From contig JAFAKN010000316.1 of NCBI GenBank assembly GCA_019235415.1, positions 1 through 40,218 on the forward strand: a stretch of DNA of 40,218 bases, in the 5' to 3' direction. The DNA comes from Alphaproteobacteria bacterium. Its GTDB lineage: Bacteria > Pseudomonadota > Alphaproteobacteria > Reyranellales > Reyranellaceae. The translations under genes and the position numbers were made by a program. A model generated the notes under the pieces. The model saw only the letters and a list, made by a program, of their open reading frames with translations, searched no databases and had not been told where the DNA came from. Positions 3,716 to 26,305 of the stretch are shown here, piece after piece. Position 1 is the first letter of the stretch, and each line of letters opens with the position of its first letter.

Positions 3716-5506
3716 ATGCCGCGCGCCACCTGGACATGGACCTTCGATCTTGCGCCGGACGAGCTGTGGCCGGTGCTGGCCGACACCAATCGCTTCAACG
3801 AGGCAATGGGGCTGCCGGCCTACACCCTGGAGGAGACGCCGCAGGCCAACGGCACGGTGGTGCGCCGCGGCCGCGGCAAGGCCGCGGGCTTCGATCTCGC
3901 CTGGGAGGAGAAGCCGTATGAATGGATCTGGGGCCGCCACTTCCGCCAGGCGCGCGTCTTCACCAAGGGGCCGTTCCGCCAGTTCGGGCCGGTGTTCGAT
4001 CTCGAGCCGCTGGCGCTGCCGGACGGCCGAATTGGCAGCAAGGTCACCTATGCGCTGGAATACGAGCCGCTGACCTGGCTCGGCCGCCTGTTCGGCGCCC
4101 GGCTGGCACGGCAGGCCGGCGAGGCGGTGGGCAAGCGCGTCCTGCAAGCCGTCGCCTACGCGAAGGGCGAGCGGACCGCGCAATTCGATCTGCCGCCGCC
4201 GGTCCTGCCCGAGAGCGCCCGCATCCGCGCCACGGCGCTTGCTGGGGAAATCGATCGCAGTCCATACGGCAACGGGCTCGGCAAGGCGCTCGCCGACTTG
4301 GTGCTGAGCGCCATGGCGAGCGACCTGATGCCACTCAAGCCCAAGCGGCTTGCGCGCGAACTCAAAGTCGCACCGCGCGCGGCCATCGAGGCCTGCCTCG
4401 CCGCCACGCGCAGCGGACTTTTGGCGATGAAATGGGACCTGCTGTGCACCAACTGCCGCGGCGCCAAGTTCAGCACCCCGACGCTCGGCGACCTGCCGCG
4501 CGGCGCCCACTGCCCCTCCTGCAACATCGATTACGGCCGCGACTTCGAGAAGAACGTCGAGCTGTCCTTTGCGCCGTCGCCCACGATTCGGCCGCTGGCG
4601 TTGGGGGCCTTCTGCCTGTCCGGCCCGATGAGCACACCGCACGTTGCGGTTCAGCTCCTGCTGGCGCCCGGCGAGACGCGCACGATCGCAGCCGAGCTGC
4701 CAGCCGGAGCTTATCGCTTGCGAACACTGCACCCTGGCGAAGTCGTCGACTTCGATCACTCGGGCGGGCCGCTCCCCGGCCTGCGCATAACCGCGGCGGG
4801 CGTCGAAGCCCTGCCCCCCGGCGAACGCGGCACCATCACCTTCCACAACGAAGCGGGCTTCGAGCTTGCGGCCGTGATCGAGGACCGAACCTGGACGCGC
4901 GATGCGCTGACCGCGCCCGAGGTGATCTCGCTGCAAGCGTTCCGCGACCTCTTCGCCGCCGCCACGCTGCGGCCAGGGGACGAAGCCGGCGTGAACCAGG
5001 TGGCGCTGCTGTTCACCGACCTGCAGGGGTCGACTGCGCTCTACGAGCAGGTCGGCGATGCGCAGGCCTACAACATCGTGCGCGAACACTTCGCGCTGCT
5101 GGCCGGCATCGTGCGCGACCACGATGGCGCCGTCGTCAAGACGATCGGCGATGCGGTGATGGCCGCCTTCGGCGATCCCGCCGACGCAGTCAGGGCGGCG
5201 CTCGCCATGCAGGCCCGCATCGCCGACCAGCATCTCGTCCTGAAGGTCGGCGTGCATGCTGGCGGCAGCGTCGTCGTCACCCTGAACGACCGGCTCGACT
5301 ACTTCGGTTCGACGGTCAACATGGCGGCACGGTTGCAAGGCCAGAGCCACGGCGGCGACATCGTGCTGAGCCGTGCCGTCGCGCAGGACCCCGCCGTCAA
5401 GCCGCTGCTTGCGGGCTTGCCGGCCAGCGAGGAAAGCATGCCGCTAAAAGGCTTCGCCGAGCCGATCAGCTTCCTGCGGCTGGTTGCCCCTTCGGCCTCG
5501 CCCTAA
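3716..5506 (+). CDS. SRPBCC / zinc-ribbon / class III adenylate cyclase fusion protein
   Basis: 596 residues, cytoplasmic by lack of signal or membrane segments. Residues 1-~150 look like a START/SRPBCC lipid- or ligand-binding domain. The middle region resembles the DUF5939 type found in front of cyclase domains; it carries a probable zinc ribbon, C244/C247 and C266/C269. Residues ~425-585 are a class III nucleotidyl cyclase domain. Metal-binding aspartates are D435 (FTDLQGST) and D479 (KTIGDAVMAAF). K475 and D528 sit at the two base-recognition positions that favour ATP over GTP, and N535/R539 (STVNMAARL) are the transition-state residues, so all key residues are present and cAMP is the expected product. 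The probable job is sensing a hydrophobic ligand and changing cAMP, which is inference. It converges on the lysozyme-like gene, the two stop codons sharing bases 5503-5506 (CTAA). Confidence 0.88.
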   Translation: MPRATWTWTFDLAPDELWPVLADTNRFNEAMGLPAYTLEETPQANGTVVRRGRGKAAGFDLAWEEKPYEWIWGRHFRQARVFTKGPFRQFGPVFDLEPLALPDGRIGSKVTYALEYEPLTWLGRLFGARLARQAGEAVGKRVLQAVAYAKGERTAQFDLPPPVLPESARIRATALAGEIDRSPYGNGLGKALADLVLSAMASDLMPLKPKRLARELKVAPRAAIEACLAATRSGLLAMKWDLLCTNCRGAKFSTPTLGDLPRGAHCPSCNIDYGRDFEKNVELSFAPSPTIRPLALGAFCLSGPMSTPHVAVQLLLAPGETRTIAAELPAGAYRLRTLHPGEVVDFDHSGGPLPGLRITAAGVEALPPGERGTITFHNEAGFELAAVIEDRTWTRDALTAPEVISLQAFRDLFAAATLRPGDEAGVNQVALLFTDLQGSTALYEQVGDAQAYNIVREHFALLAGIVRDHDGAVVKTIGDAVMAAFGDPADAVRAALAMQARIADQHLVLKVGVHAGGSVVVTLNDRLDYFGSTVNMAARLQGQSHGGDIVLSRAVAQDPAVKPLLAGLPASEESMPLKGFAEPISFLRLVAPSASP

Positions 5507-21428: not shown

Positions 21429-22376
21429 TTACGTGCCGAAATGCGCGCCCAACACCGCCGCCGCTTCGTCGTTGGCCTTGAGGCCTTGGCTCAGGAACCG
21501 CGTCAGCGAGAAGAAGCCGTGGATGGTTCCTGGATAGTTGACGTAGGTCGTCTTCACGCCTGACTCGATCAGGCGCTCGGCATAGGCGCGGCCCTCGTCG
21601 CGCAACGGGTCGTAGCCGGCGGTCAGCACGAAGGCCGGCGGCAGGCCGGCAAGGTCCTTGGCGAGCAGAGGCGACAGGCGGAGATCCGCGAGATCGGTGT
21701 CCGCCGGCACATAGGCCTTCCAGAACCAGTCGATCAGCTCCTTGGTGAGGAAATAGCCCTCGCTGAACGCCTGGCGCGAAGCGCTCTGCCGGCTTGAATC
21801 GGTCGCGGGATAGATCAGCATCTGGAAGGCAGGGCCGGCCTCGTGCGCATCGCGCACCGCCTGGCAGACCACGGCGGCGATCGCACCACCCGCCGAATCG
21901 CCGCCGACTGCAAGCCGCGTCGGCTCGGCACCGAGGGCAACGGCGTTATCGCGGATATGGCGGAAAGCGGCGACGCCGTCGTCGATCGGCGCCGGGAAGG
22001 GATGCTCGGGCGCCAGCCGGTAGTCGATCGCGATCACCTGGCAGCGGCTCTTGTTGGCCAGACGCCGGCAGGTGGAATCGTGCGTCTCGAGCGTGCCGAT
22101 CACGAAGCCGCCGCCGTGATAGTAAACCAGCGTCGGCAGCAAGCCGTCGGCTGCGCCGATCGGCTTGTAGCGGCGATAGCCGATGTCGCCGCCCGGGCCT
22201 GCGAATTTGCCGTCGATCACCGCCGCGACCTCCGGCGGCTCAGCCTCGCTGTCCTCCGACATCTTGTCGACGGCGGCACGGCCTACGGCATAAGGCAACG
22301 TGTGCAGCTTGGGGCGGCCCTCGGCCACGGCCTTGTCCATCAGGTCCAAGAGCATGCGGGCTTCGGCATCGAGCAT
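21429..22376 (-). CDS. alpha/beta hydrolase, hormone-sensitive-lipase (HSL) family esterase
   Basis: 315 residues, cytoplasmic. The HSL oxyanion motif is H87-G-G-G90 (YYHGGGFVIG), the nucleophile elbow is GGDSAGG with S161, and the other triad members are D256 (GYDPLRDEG) and H286 (GTIHGFF). The expected role is hydrolysis of short- to medium-chain carboxylic esters. The frame is open far upstream, but the ATG at 22376 is right: AGAGGAGA lies a few bases before it and homology begins here. It is divergent from the DUF3592 gene over a 111-bp spacer and followed by the inverted repeat element. Confidence 0.92.
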   Translation of the reverse strand: MLDAEARMLLDLMDKAVAEGRPKLHTLPYAVGRAAVDKMSEDSEAEPPEVAAVIDGKFAGPGGDIGYRRYKPIGAADGLLPTLVYYHGGGFVIGTLETHDSTCRRLANKSRCQVIAIDYRLAPEHPFPAPIDDGVAAFRHIRDNAVALGAEPTRLAVGGDSAGGAIAAVVCQAVRDAHEAGPAFQMLIYPATDSSRQSASRQAFSEGYFLTKELIDWFWKAYVPADTDLADLRLSPLLAKDLAGLPPAFVLTAGYDPLRDEGRAYAERLIESGVKTTYVNYPGTIHGFFSLTRFLSQGLKANDEAAAVLGAHFGT

Positions 22377-22487: not shown

Positions 22488-23492
22488 ATGGAACCCGGCT
22501 GGATCGCGCTGCTCCTTTGCCTGCTGATACCCGCCGGGTTGGCCGCCGCGATCATTCGCGTGCAATGGCAATTCCGGCGCCTGAGATCGTGGAAGGAAGC
22601 GATAGGCGTCATCGAGCACGCGCGGTCGGTGGCGCGCGAAGTGCGCTCGAAGCGCTTCAGCACGAATGACAGCGACGACAGCACCGAGTTCGTCACCAAA
22701 GAAACTGTCGAGACGCGCAACTACGCCGAGATTTTGTACAGCTTTACGGTCGGCGCGAGGACCTACCGCGGCAACCGCGTTTCCCTGGCGAAGGACCCCG
22801 ACAGCGCCGAGGTCGTCGCGACCTTGAAACGTTACCCCAAGGGCAAGACCGTCCCCGTCTACTACAACCCAAAGAACCCGGACGACTGCATCCTCGAGCG
22901 AGACGACAAAGGCAATATCGGGCTGGCGTGGAAGGCCGTAGCCAGCCTGGTTGGCTTCATATTGGCAGGTTTCGTCGCCCTCACGGTGGGAGCGGACTGG
23001 TTGCGCGGCGTCGTTGCCAACCAGCACCGGGTGCCGTTGGTAGTCGCGTTCGTCGTGTTCGCCCTGGTGATGATCCTGTTCGCCCGGGTGCTGAGCAGGA
23101 AGACGCGTGCCATGAGGAAGTGGCCCAAGACGCCCGGCCGGATCGTCCGGTCGGACGTGACCACGACCGTCGAGCAGCACGATCGCTCCGGCAGCGCGCG
23201 AGACTACAGCGTCACGATGTATGTCCCGCGCATCGTCTACGCCTACGAGGTGGACGGCAACGCATTCCAGGGCGACAACATCGGCTGGTCGTCGAGTGCC
23301 AACACGCCCGCGGTCGCCGAGAAGCAGGTCAAGCGCTTCCCACTGCAAACCCAGGTCCAGGTGTTCTATGACCCCGACGACCCAACGCAATCGACACTGG
23401 CGCCGCCGCGAGGACTCCTCGCTCTGGTCTTCTGGGCCATCGCGGTGGCGTTTGCCTTCGGCGCCTATGCCGTCGGCTGGCTGCTTCCGTGA
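22488..23492 (+). CDS. membrane protein with two DUF3592 domains
   Basis: 334 residues. The layout is TM1 (~5-24), a soluble domain (~38-145) with the DUF3592 pattern ending VPVYYNPKNPDDCILE, two TM segments (~155-175 and ~183-202), a second soluble domain (~210-300) ending VQVFYDPDDPTQSTL, and a final TM (~310-330). The two soluble halves share the F/YYDPxxP-type ending and look like an internal duplication. The function of DUF3592 is unknown. The ATG at 22488 is chosen because the protein-like sequence and TM1 begin there. It ends 2 bp from the stop of the convergent PLP-enzyme gene. Confidence 0.85.
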   Translation: MEPGWIALLLCLLIPAGLAAAIIRVQWQFRRLRSWKEAIGVIEHARSVAREVRSKRFSTNDSDDSTEFVTKETVETRNYAEILYSFTVGARTYRGNRVSLAKDPDSAEVVATLKRYPKGKTVPVYYNPKNPDDCILERDDKGNIGLAWKAVASLVGFILAGFVALTVGADWLRGVVANQHRVPLVVAFVVFALVMILFARVLSRKTRAMRKWPKTPGRIVRSDVTTTVEQHDRSGSARDYSVTMYVPRIVYAYEVDGNAFQGDNIGWSSSANTPAVAEKQVKRFPLQTQVQVFYDPDDPTQSTLAPPRGLLALVFWAIAVAFAFGAYAVGWLLP

Positions 23493-23494
23493 AG

Positions 23495-24520
23495 TCAGTG
23501 CGGATCGAACAAATGACGGTAGGCGAACAGGGCCGGCGCCCCACCGGTATGAATGAACACGACGTCGTCGTCGGCCGACCAGCGCTCGGCGCGGATCAGC
23601 GCCAAGAGTCCGGCCAGGCCCTTGCCCGAGTAGACCGGATCGAGCACCAGCGCCTCGAGCCGCGCCGCCAGCCGGATCGCCTCGACGGTGGCGGCATGCG
23701 GCACGCCGTAGGCCGGCCCGGCGTGGCCGGCGACGACCTCGACGTCGGCTTCGTCGAACGGCTGCCCGAGCAGCTCCGCGGCCGCCCGGCCGTAGCTGAC
23801 GACGTCGCGCCGCACGCGCTCGGGCTCGGCGTCGATGTCGATGCCGACGATGCGCGTGCCGGGCAATGCGAGCCGCGCGCCGACGACCAGCCCGGCCTGC
23901 GTGCCGGCGCTTCCGGTGCAATGGACGATCGCCTTCGGCACGATGCCTTGCGCGGCGCACTGGGCCGCGATCTCGACAATGGTCGAGGCATAGGCGACCG
24001 CGCCGAGCGGATCGGACACGCCATAGGGAACGACGTACGGCTTGCGTCCCCTGGCGCGGAGCGTCTCGGCCAGCGCCCGGATGGCGCCGTTGCGGTCGCC
24101 GTCCCACGGCACGTCGTGCAGGGTGGCGCCGAACAGGCGGTTCAACAGCGCGTTGCCGCTCAACTCGTAGTCGGGCGAGGGCGGCGCGACGCGGCCGTGA
24201 TAGACCGCGAGATGGCAGTCGAGGCCGAGCTTCGCCGCCGCCGCGGCGACCTGGCGCTGGCTGTTGGATTGCACCACGCCGCCCGAGACCAGGGTGTCGA
24301 CGCCTTGGCTGAGCGCTGCGTGCAGCACGTAGTCGAGCTTGCGCAGCTTGTTGCCGCCGAAGCCCGGGCCGGTGCAGTCCTCGCGCTTGACCCACAGTCG
24401 CGGGCAGCTTCCGGCGTCGGCGAGATGCGCCGTCAGGCGTTTCATCGGCTCGAAGGGCGTCGGCAGGATGCAGAGACCGACGCGCTCGAAGCGCGCCAGC
24501 GCCTCGGCGAGGCGGCTCAT
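23495..24520 (-). CDS. PLP-dependent D-cysteine desulfhydrase / ACC deaminase family enzyme
   Basis: 341 residues of the tryptophan-synthase-beta (fold type II) PLP family. The cofactor lysine is K58 in GFGGNKLRKL. The following substrate loop reads QSNSQRQVAAAAAKLGL; most relatives have QSNH/T at the Ser-Asn-Ser site. DPVYSGKGLAGL near residue ~295 and the phosphate-binding CTGSAGTQAG near ~200 are typical. Members release H2S from D-cysteine, open ACC, or desulfonate L-cysteate; sequence alone does not settle which. The ATG at 24520 overlaps the stop of the upstream hydrolase gene by 4 bp. It is the last gene of the Bug/hydrolase/PLP operon, suggesting an imported amino-acid-like or sulfonated substrate, which is inference. 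Confidence 0.85.
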   Translation of the reverse strand: MSRLAEALARFERVGLCILPTPFEPMKRLTAHLADAGSCPRLWVKREDCTGPGFGGNKLRKLDYVLHAALSQGVDTLVSGGVVQSNSQRQVAAAAAKLGLDCHLAVYHGRVAPPSPDYELSGNALLNRLFGATLHDVPWDGDRNGAIRALAETLRARGRKPYVVPYGVSDPLGAVAYASTIVEIAAQCAAQGIVPKAIVHCTGSAGTQAGLVVGARLALPGTRIVGIDIDAEPERVRRDVVSYGRAAAELLGQPFDEADVEVVAGHAGPAYGVPHAATVEAIRLAARLEALVLDPVYSGKGLAGLLALIRAERWSADDDVVFIHTGGAPALFAYRHLFDPH

Positions 24521-25332
24521 CGCAAGAAGGTGCGTGCGTGGGCCGCGATGTCCTCGGCGCGCTCCCAGCTCATGCAGAAGCGCGCGCCGGGCACGATCGC
24601 GACTTTTGCCTGCGGGCACTTCGCCTGCAGCAGCGCGCGATGCCGGCCGTAGATGAAATGCTCGCCGTACAGCATCAGCACCGGGCATGTCAGCGCCGCC
24701 ATGCCGCCGAGCGTATCGAACCTGGCGAGCGCACCCATCGCCTGCCAGCGGTCGCGTCCGATCTCCAGCTGCGCGATGTTGATGCGGTCCATCCACGACT
24801 GCGTCGGCTGCATCGGCGCATGCTCGGGATCGTGTTGCAGCAGGAAGTCGATGGTGCGCGGCGCGGGAAAGCCGGTCGGATCGCTCGGCCGCACCTTGGC
24901 GATGTCGGCGATGTCGCGGCTGGCGGTATCGGCGTCGGTGAAGTAGGGGGTGTTTATGAGCACCACCTTGTCGATGCGCTCGCGCCATGCGCCGCCGAGC
25001 GCGATCGACACCGCCGCGCCGACCGCTTCGCCCATGGCGACGGCGCGCTCGATGCCCAGCGCATCCATGACCTCGATCACGGCGCGCGCGTAGTCCTCGA
25101 TCGTCGGCTGCCAGTCGATGTGGTCGGAATGGCCGTGGCTCGGATAGTCGATCGCGACCGCACGGAAATGCGGGCCGAGCGCCTGCAGAAGCTCGACCAT
25201 CACCGCCGAGCTCTGCTGGTTGATGTGGCTCACCATCACGACGGGGCCCCCATTGGCGCTTGACCCGCAGGCCCGCCAGTGGATGTGGCCGGCGAAGGTC
25301 TTCGCCAGCCCGCGTTCGATCGGCAGAGTCAC
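24517..25332 (-). CDS. alpha/beta hydrolase-fold protein lacking the nucleophile serine
   Basis: 271 residues with the usual fold landmarks: strand VVMVSHIN in the place of the oxyanion HG, AIDYPSHGHSD after strand 4, the elbow at AVAMGEAVGAA, and VLMLYGEHF near ~220. The GxSxG elbow reads G101-E-A103-V-G105, so the nucleophile serine is alanine. The usual catalytic-histidine segment near the C-terminus is GARFCMSWERAEDI, without histidine. The protein is therefore unlikely to work by a normal Ser-His-Asp mechanism; it may be a binding protein or use another chemistry. It lies 4 bp after the Bug-type gene and overlaps the PLP-enzyme gene, so it is translated with them. Confidence 0.82.
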   Translation of the reverse strand: MTLPIERGLAKTFAGHIHWRACGSSANGGPVVMVSHINQQSSAVMVELLQALGPHFRAVAIDYPSHGHSDHIDWQPTIEDYARAVIEVMDALGIERAVAMGEAVGAAVSIALGGAWRERIDKVVLINTPYFTDADTASRDIADIAKVRPSDPTGFPAPRTIDFLLQHDPEHAPMQPTQSWMDRINIAQLEIGRDRWQAMGALARFDTLGGMAALTCPVLMLYGEHFIYGRHRALLQAKCPQAKVAIVPGARFCMSWERAEDIAAHARTFLR

Positions 25333-25336
25333 TGCG

Positions 25337-26305
25337 CTACTCGAGCTTCACGTTGGCGAACTTCACGACCTCGGCCCACTTGGTCCCTTCCTCCTTGAGG
25401 AAAGCTTTTAGCTCCTCGGTCGTGCCGCCGCCCACCACGCCGCCGGCCGCAGCATAGGCCTCGGCAACCTCCTTGGTCTTGAGCGCCGCCGTCGCGGCAT
25501 CGAAGATCTTCCTGCGGGCGTCCGCCGGCGCGCCGCCGGGCGAGACGAGCGCATACCAGTTGTCGGAATTGACCTTGGGATAGCCCATCTCGCGCATGGT
25601 CGGCACGTCGGGCAGGAGCGGCGCGCGGGTGTCGGATGTCACGGCCAGCACCTTCACGGAGCCCGAGCGCACATGCGGCAGCAGAATCGAGATGTCGAGC
25701 AGCACGGCGTCGACCGTGCCGGCCAAAAGGTCATTGGTGGCAGGTGCGGCGCCGCGATAAGGCACGTGCAGAAGGTCGGTGCCGGTCTCGTGCTTTAAAA
25801 GCTCGATGGCGAGATGGGTGATGCCGCCGGTGCCGGCCGAGCCGCAGGTCACTTTGCCGGGATTGGCCTTGGCGTAAGCGACGAAGCTCTTGAGGTTGCC
25901 GACACCGAGCTTGGCGCTGACGGCGAACACCTCCTGCACGCGCACCACCAGGATCTGCGGCGCAATGTCCTTGGCCGGGTCGAACGGCATCTTAGGCATC
26001 AGGCTCTGCATGATGGCGCCGGCCGAGGCGCTCATCAGGCCCATGACATGCGCGTCGCTGCCGGCCTTGGCGACGAAGTCGACGCCGGTGACGCCGGCCG
26101 CACCGCTCTTGTTCTCGATCACCACCGGCTGGCCGAGGAACGGCGCCATGCGCTCGCCGAGGTTCCGCCCGAAGATGTCCGCCGGCCCGCCGGCCGGGAA
26201 CGGTACGACCAGGGTCAGCGGCTTGGCGGGAAACGACTCGGCTTTCGCCGGCGAAAGCGGCAAGGCGGCAAGACCGCCGAGGGCGACGCGACGCGTGATA
26301 CGCAC
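25337..26305 (-). CDS. Bug-type (tripartite tricarboxylate transporter) periplasmic binding protein
   Basis: 322 residues. The signal peptide is ~1-23 (TRRVALGGLAALPLSPAKA, with a twin arginine). The mature protein has the Bug signatures: VVPFPAGGPADIFGR, VIENKSGAAG, then GSAGTGGITHLA, VPYRGAAPATNDLLAGTVD and LLPDVPTMREMG. It captures small carboxylates or related anions in the periplasm. The start is GTG at 26305, preceded by GGAGG about 10 bases upstream. No TctA/TctB membrane genes are near, which is common for orphan Bug proteins. It is the first gene of a three-gene operon, so the PLP enzyme and hydrolase may act on its ligand. Confidence 0.92.
   Translation of the reverse strand: MRITRRVALGGLAALPLSPAKAESFPAKPLTLVVPFPAGGPADIFGRNLGERMAPFLGQPVVIENKSGAAGVTGVDFVAKAGSDAHVMGLMSASAGAIMQSLMPKMPFDPAKDIAPQILVVRVQEVFAVSAKLGVGNLKSFVAYAKANPGKVTCGSAGTGGITHLAIELLKHETGTDLLHVPYRGAAPATNDLLAGTVDAVLLDISILLPHVRSGSVKVLAVTSDTRAPLLPDVPTMREMGYPKVNSDNWYALVSPGGAPADARRKIFDAATAALKTKEVAEAYAAAGGVVGGGTTEELKAFLKEEGTKWAEVVKFANVKLE

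Follow-up and report, generated by a model that had tools for sequence, protein, structure and literature searches.

What does a protein with the fold of a serine hydrolase do when both its nucleophile and its catalytic histidine have been replaced, and why is its gene kept directly behind that of a binding protein? The question is raised by the window analysed here, a stretch of 40,218 nucleotides from a member of the Reyranellaceae (Alphaproteobacteria; assembly GCA_019235415.1, contig JAFAKN010000316.1, positions 1 to 40,218). Its minus strand carries, head to tail, the genes of a Bug/TctC-type solute-binding protein (Bug), an alpha/beta-hydrolase-fold protein (here called ABH) and a fold-type-II enzyme dependent on pyridoxal 5'-phosphate (PLP), with a gap of 4 bp between Bug and ABH and an overlap of 4 bp (ATGA) between ABH and PLP. 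This three-gene layout, described in an earlier note made from the same DNA, was reproduced from the coordinates (Table 1). We find that ABH belongs to a maintained family in which both replacements are conserved, and that its gene is one module of an operon for which a single gene order was seen in the genus.

A hydrolase-fold family without nucleophile or catalytic histidine

The ABH family was gathered from 34 loci confirmed by tblastn, from genome searches and from regions read afterwards. Among 51 distinct sequences, 44 (>300 bits) were counted as members and the other seven (50–115 bits) as other hydrolase-fold proteins; two members, one with residue 103 illegible and the other missing its C-terminal end, were left out of the tree. 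The Ser, Cys or Asp expected in the nucleophile elbow (GxNuxG) is absent from the family: all 43 distinct sequences that can be read there, with identities down to 47%, have Ala103 instead, always preceded by Glu102 and followed by Val or, in two sequences, Thr. No histidine was found at the catalytic-His position (after strand 8) in any alignment made. When the profile is aligned with BphD, Phe252 falls on this position; when ABH is aligned with RutD or with Ser-bearing relatives, Arg251 does. Phe252 and Cys253 are present in 43 of 43 sequences and Arg251 in 40 (Asn in three). Both peculiarities that the earlier note had read from the window protein, Ala103 and the missing histidine, are thus properties of the family, recurring in records of Reyranella-type bacteria, Acetobacteraceae and Burkholderiales, and a strain-specific loss of a serine at residue 103 is rejected by the 43 of 43 count.

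Conservation extends well beyond the elbow. All 44 members share His36, Gln40, Asp62, His171, Trp180, Asp182, Arg183, Asn185, Arg193, Trp196, Glu224 and Phe226, and an alignment of 19 sequences has 67 invariant columns. The loop on which BphD and RutD bear their catalytic acid has two residues fewer in ABH, with the invariant Glu224 nearby. In the tree, the family forms one clade (42 rows, support 99/99) whose stem is long. The Ser-bearing relatives, which carry SGxSxGG or similar and ..HFPMLDEP, fall outside it, two of them being 26–27% identical to the window protein; the exact sister of the clade is unsure because of long branches among the outgroups, for which the tree program issued a warning.

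The ratio of nonsynonymous to synonymous substitution rates (dN/dS) was computed with our own Nei–Gojobori script, dropping rows that were short, contained N or fell below 60% identity. Its median against the window copy was 0.22 for ABH, 0.21 for the esterase introduced below, 0.22 for PLP and 0.32 for Bug, from rows that may include the window's own locus (in three of the four genes the lowest dN was 0) and in which some entries under different names come from one genome. In the 15 pairs with the lowest dS, ABH values ranged from 0.04 to 0.28. ABH is therefore under purifying selection like the esterase, a maintained protein and no relic, and a simple pseudogene is rejected on the same values. 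No export signal is visible in ABH. An AlphaFold2 model built on the family alignment (predicted local distance difference test, pLDDT, 87.7; predicted template-modelling score, pTM, 0.89) has the alpha/beta-hydrolase fold: 1,000 of 1,000 aligned chains scored Z >= 8, and those listed are alpha/beta hydrolases.

A modular operon and its partner proteins

Many of the loci closest to the window bear the name Reyranella, others only 'Alphaproteobacteria' or 'Rhodospirillales', and the window is taken to belong to that genus. Gene order was compared in a sample of 65 genomes of the genus. An esterase gene, left unlinked in the earlier note, proved to be the most widespread member: matches at E <= 1e-85 were found in 51 of the 65 genomes for the esterase and in 45 for Bug, ABH was present in 30 and the PLP orthologue in 21. 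The ABH count comprises 27 genomes from the genome search (one with a partial copy), G104, and G102 and G103 from regions read; no copy was found in the remaining 35, one of which (G101) was judged solely by its short Bug–esterase gap. The full arrangement Bug-ABH-PLP-esterase occurs in 17 genomes, Bug-ABH-esterase in 11, Bug-esterase in 10, Bug-PLP-esterase in two, Bug-Bug-PLP-esterase in two, Bug-Bug-esterase in one, Bug-ABH in two and the esterase alone in eight.

No order other than Bug-[ABH]-[PLP]-esterase, with the bracketed genes optional, was seen among the placed matches of the genus genomes. All 30 ABH genes directly follow a Bug gene, so the arrangement is more than chance, and all 21 PLP genes have Bug or ABH on one side and the esterase on the other. 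Contigs of R. massiliensis and R. soli are among those with Bug, ABH and PLP. In two genomes a hole of 0.82–0.83 kb separated Bug from the esterase, and both held ABH when read. The conserved order upholds the earlier idea of a gene set. A strict three-gene unit is rejected, ABH and PLP being optional: among the 45 Bug-bearing genomes, 17 have both, 13 ABH only, four PLP only and 11 neither. In the two genomes with the bare Bug-ABH pair, the copy runs off the contig (G007) or the contig ends ~0.35 kb after ABH (G009). The G009 copy (L006) also contains an in-frame TAG, and no esterase match was found in that genome.

The esterase passes the LipP1 model of the hormone-sensitive lipase (HSL) type (NF058653, 355.4 bits; cut-off 350) and carries the serine motif GDSAG. 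In relatives it directly follows PLP, or ABH or Bug where PLP is missing. The PLP–esterase gap is 1,121 bp in the window versus 7–22 bp in the 16 other four-gene genomes, and it holds a DUF3592 gene on the opposite strand, so co-transcription of the esterase may be lost in the window genome. A promoter scan found none (0.4 expected), and terminator-like sites numbered four against 2.8 expected. A cyclase-domain gene lies ~16 kb from the esterase end of the operon in the window, whereas its homologue adjoins that end in relatives L031, L034 and L095–L099, which suggests a local rearrangement or insertion.

Table 1 Features of the operon and neighbouring genes in the window
Feature	Coordinates	Strand	Details	Family match
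Bug/TctC-type periplasmic solute-binding protein	25337-26305	minus	GTG start, 322 aa	PF03401
ABH, alpha/beta-hydrolase-fold protein	24517-25332	minus	GTG start, 271 aa	Pfam Abhydrolase_1
ABH nucleophile elbow GEAVG, residues 101-105	25018-25032	minus	G101-E102-A103-V104-G105	
PLP fold-type-II enzyme, D-cysteine desulfhydrase / D-cysteate sulfo-lyase / ACC deaminase group	23495-24520	minus	ATG start, 341 aa	PF00291 (PALP)
HSL-type (LipP1 family) carboxylesterase, fourth operon member	21429-22376	minus	315 aa	NF058653, PF07859
DUF3592 gene, between PLP and esterase, outside operon	22488-23492	plus		PF12158
Cyclase-domain protein	3716-5506	plus		Guanylate_cyc, DUF5939

The Bug protein matches PF03401 at 197.7 bits (cut-off 27) and begins with an export signal, MRITRRVALGGLAALPLSPAKA, read from the sequence. 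The genome has 28 TctC matches and a single TctA match, which sits on another contig, so that no TctA gene stands beside Bug; TctB was not searched for. Three further Bug genes, 49–51% identical, stand alone in genus genomes. Two Bug genes occur in tandem in three genomes (L097 in G002, L099 in G016 and L132 in G003), none of which has ABH between Bug and PLP or the esterase; loss of ABH may go with a change of ligand, as these genomes hint.

The PLP enzyme matches PF00291 at 155.9 bits, and the PLP-lysine motif GGNKLRKL is present in all 21 genomes with an orthologue. Its loop had been called altered on account of the letters QSNS. These are fixed in 21 of 21 orthologues, while nine genus paralogues have His or Tyr after QSN and three solved relatives shown have His or Gln; Q, S and N themselves are kept, and only the residue after Asn differs. 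The clade keeps DPVYSGKG (DPVYSAKG in one genome) and has fixed letters of its own, QSNS (part of its marker QSNSQRQ), PYGVS and AG-AGP. For three members, the best NCBIfam model was CuyA (NF052482) at 344.0 (the window enzyme), 346.1 and 351.0 bits (cut-off 450); they reached 239.1, 243.6 and 249.8 bits on the D-cysteine desulfhydrase (DCyD) family model TIGR01275 (cut-off 289.4) and 250.6, 252.9 and 249.5 bits on the model of 1-aminocyclopropane-1-carboxylate (ACC) deaminase, TIGR01274 (cut-off 392). Membership of all three families is rejected, since the three members fall under every cut-off. Genus paralogues pass those of CuyA (L086, 505.5 bits; L089, 501.4 bits) and ACC deaminase (L090, 588.4 bits). 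Judged by these scores and motifs, the enzyme is a separate subfamily near CuyA and D-cysteine desulfhydrase, with letters like those of DCyD and CuyA and unlike those of ACC deaminase.

ABH was also searched for in wider samples. Several of the counts are lower bounds, as the best candidates were scored. Members were found in at least two of 385 genomes of the class sample (the window genome included) and at least one of 398 of the phylum sample (the window genome itself); with the starting genome included in each, they were found in at least four of 200 of the Acetobacteraceae-type family sample and three of four of the Burkholderiales-type family sample. Searching plasmids with ABH gave 13 records, of which the ten listed are 24–28% identical. 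We read the neighbourhoods of 13 family loci outside the operon, naming genes from the protein unless a Pfam or NCBIfam match confirmed them. A Bug gene is the immediate neighbour at five (L059/L128, L062, L120/L125, L114/L122 and L115/L123; Pfam TctC). At L058, a tandem pair of ABH genes is followed by ABC-transporter-like genes, and the leading one of these encodes a confirmed binding protein. A MaoC-like gene lies downstream at L056, L057 and L061 (confirmed for L057), and L060 is near molybdenum-hydroxylase (confirmed), thiolase-like and RraA-like genes. ABH follows a kdsA-like gene at L063 and L119 and a gene of the major facilitator superfamily (confirmed) at L121. The L059/L128 locus has 4HBT and RraA genes (both confirmed), and L123 continues with acetate-CoA-ligase-like and thiolase-like genes (both confirmed), acyl-CoA-dehydrogenase-like and acyl-CoA-ligase-like genes and an Asp/Glu-racemase gene (confirmed). 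As far as gene content tells, these loci have uptake and the catabolism of organic acids in common and point to no one substrate.

Other hydrolase-fold proteins with unusual elbows were met along the way. Serine-less proteins (L133, L134, L135, L141 and L142; L136 and L028; L137) carry GHHTG in genus genomes, GSHTG joined to GHNGG, GHQGG or GLNGG in two-domain proteins of genome G090, which has 14 matches, and GTEIG. L110 (6428-7252, plus strand), on a contig stretch that also holds an ABH gene, encodes an alpha/beta-hydrolase-like protein with AAKLG, adjoining enolase-superfamily-like and iron-alcohol-dehydrogenase-like genes (names read from the proteins). A residue other than Ser at the nucleophile position seems, by these elbows, to be frequent in these bacteria.

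Possible function and rival explanations

Proteins whose catalytic residues are gone are often called dead enzymes. Gene order, conservation, the replaced nucleophile and histidine and purifying selection are direct observations on the sequences, and the uniform replacements in the relatives examined suggest that an old fold has been put to new use, not that the gene is broken. Tentatively, we read Bug-[ABH]-[PLP]-esterase as a modular operon for uptake and catabolism, whose ABH protein would deal with an unstable intermediate and need no covalent nucleophile to do so. Bug would capture a small carboxylate in the periplasm, which would enter the cell through an unlinked membrane unit, and the HSL esterase would open the compound by cleaving an ester or lactone bond. 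Where present, the PLP enzyme would remove a substituent or amine from an amino-acid-like product by beta-elimination or deamination. ABH would accelerate a reaction in which a covalent nucleophile is not required, a role also proposed for RutD: a labile enamine, imine or keto-acid might be hydrolysed, tautomerised or decarboxylated. Instead of serine-hydrolase chemistry, ABH would use a rebuilt pocket, for which the candidate residues are Glu102, His36, Gln40, the cap residues Trp180, Asp182, Arg183 and Arg193, and the loop Arg251-Phe252-Cys253. With the nucleophile and His residues replaced, ordinary serine-hydrolase chemistry is excluded unless there is an unrecognised nucleophile, for which Cys253 (43 of 43) is a candidate. 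The unusual chemistry once suggested for the set remains reasonable for ABH.

PLP-dependent beta-eliminations of these families release aminoacrylate, which makes an enamine-handling ABH attractive; it cannot be the whole account, since 13 of the 30 ABH genomes have no PLP gene. Several further points weigh against the proposal. ABH and PLP are not obligate partners, and their co-occurrence is weak, with a Fisher p of 0.068 before any correction for kinship. The neighbourhoods outside the genus are diverse, and eight of the 13 loci have no adjacent Bug gene. The short acid loop is shared by two Ser-bearing relatives and so is by itself no sign of lost catalysis, and the cap part of the ABH model is less certain (residues 131–200, blocks 67–83). 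The comparison with RutD is partial because RutD keeps its Asp and His, and an excerpt of PMC8113886 reports tests in which uridine use did not depend on RutC or RutD. None of the four operon proteins could be given a ligand, a substrate or an activity.

The replaced nucleophile and histidine could also suit a non-catalytic ABH of NDRG type, which would bind either a partner protein or the compound taken up and would serve the pathway as a regulator or scaffold. According to an excerpt of PMC7022630, NDRG3 has substitutions at every triad position and has presumably lost its activity, and the Pfam model Ndr matches the window protein at 27.4 bits (cut-off 23.3) and 14 of 19 family members at E <= 0.001. 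Abhydrolase_1 nevertheless fits better (43.3 bits; 19 of 19), invariant polar residues are more numerous than we would expect of a scaffold, and ABH is found in operons with catabolic genes; we regard this role as possible but doubtful. Decay is a different matter. A decaying hydrolase hitch-hiking in the operon would account for the lost triad residues, the in-frame TAG of the G009 copy and the 35 genomes in which no copy was found, yet the low dN/dS of the closest pairs, the 67 invariant columns and identical replacements across Reyranella-type, Acetobacteraceae and Burkholderiales records oppose it as a general account and make it very improbable.

An operon for a sulfur amino acid or sulfonate, with PLP as a variant D-cysteate or D-cysteine lyase and Bug importing the compound, draws on CuyA being the best NCBIfam model of the three PLP members and on GGNKLRKL, QSN and DPVYSGKG, which match the CuyA/D-cysteine desulfhydrase pattern and not the DPVYEGK of ACC deaminase. 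The three members nevertheless fall under all listed cut-offs while genus paralogues pass those of CuyA or ACC deaminase, the PLP clade has its own fixed letters, and the four operon genes include no sulfur-transport or sulfite gene. The sulfur-containing substrate raised in the earlier note thus has no direct support; kinship to CuyA and D-cysteine desulfhydrase alone keeps the idea possible, and we consider it unlikely.

The catalytic proposal can be carried further, with less assurance. ABH proteins with GEA[VT]G might form a new class of nucleophile-free alpha/beta-hydrolase-fold enzymes, derived from a single replacement of nucleophile and catalytic His in their common ancestor and using a new acid–base pocket for a lyase or enamine-hydrolysis type of step on Bug-imported compounds. 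Such a pocket would consist of Glu102 next to Ala103, the HINQQ loop, the Arg/Trp-rich cap and Arg251-Phe252-Cys253, and the neighbouring PLP enzyme could release aminoacrylate to it; we think this rather doubtful. If ABH is an enzyme, it shows a hydrolase fold rebuilt to work without a nucleophile; if it is none, it is a bacterial ligand-binding hydrolase fold.

Comparison with known systems

Among the open-licence PMC papers listed by searches on Bug, CuyA, serine-less or pseudoenzyme hydrolases, Reyranella, RutD and NDRG, we recognised no description of the ABH family or of this operon. The operon's partners each resemble a known group and depart from it. Like other Bug (TctC) proteins, this one has the PF03401 domain, an export signal and no adjacent TctA gene; unlike them, it is coupled to ABH. 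Bug proteins are numerous and mainly unassigned (in an excerpt of PMC11452294), so a fixed genetic partner gives a handle on one ligand. The PLP enzyme shares the PALP family, the PLP-lysine motif and QSN with CuyA, D-cysteine desulfhydrase and ACC deaminase and differs in having QSNS for QSNH or QSNQ and PYGVS for PGGGS. The esterase passes the cut-off of the LipP1-family hormone-sensitive lipases and differs from them as an operon partner.

For ABH itself, the best structural and profile neighbours are 3-oxoadipate enol-lactonase (PDB 2xua) and the meta-cleavage-product hydrolases (BphD). The VIA-align best match of the model was 2xua (Z 29.2; root-mean-square deviation 2.6; 247 aligned); numerous other hydrolases scored no more than three Z units lower. 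In the family profile, BphD entries with an Ala elbow, named as S112A mutants, scored highest, ~2 bits over 2og1 (59.9 vs 57.6 bits). Enol-lactonase and BphD-type hydrolases keep a Ser-type triad.

RutD of Escherichia coli (PDB 3v48), a putative aminoacrylate hydrolase, is the nearest functional precedent that could be compared. It is likewise a small protein of a catabolic operon with an Ala elbow (GHALG vs GEAVG; 22% identity, hhalign probability 96.8). RutD keeps SDD and GGH (Asp and His), whereas ABH has neither and scores 41.5 bits on TIGR03611 (cut-off 238.5), and the operon here has no rut-type genes. The window genome's best match to the RutD model (199.6 bits, below the cut-off) is a different, Ser-bearing protein with GHSTG. 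According to an excerpt of PMC8113886, RutC deaminates 3-aminoacrylate, and RutD is believed to accelerate a step that would also proceed by itself.

The NDRG family resembles ABH in having an alpha/beta-hydrolase fold with substituted catalytic positions; unlike it, ABH is nearer to Abhydrolase_1, belongs to a bacterial operon and has many invariant polar positions.

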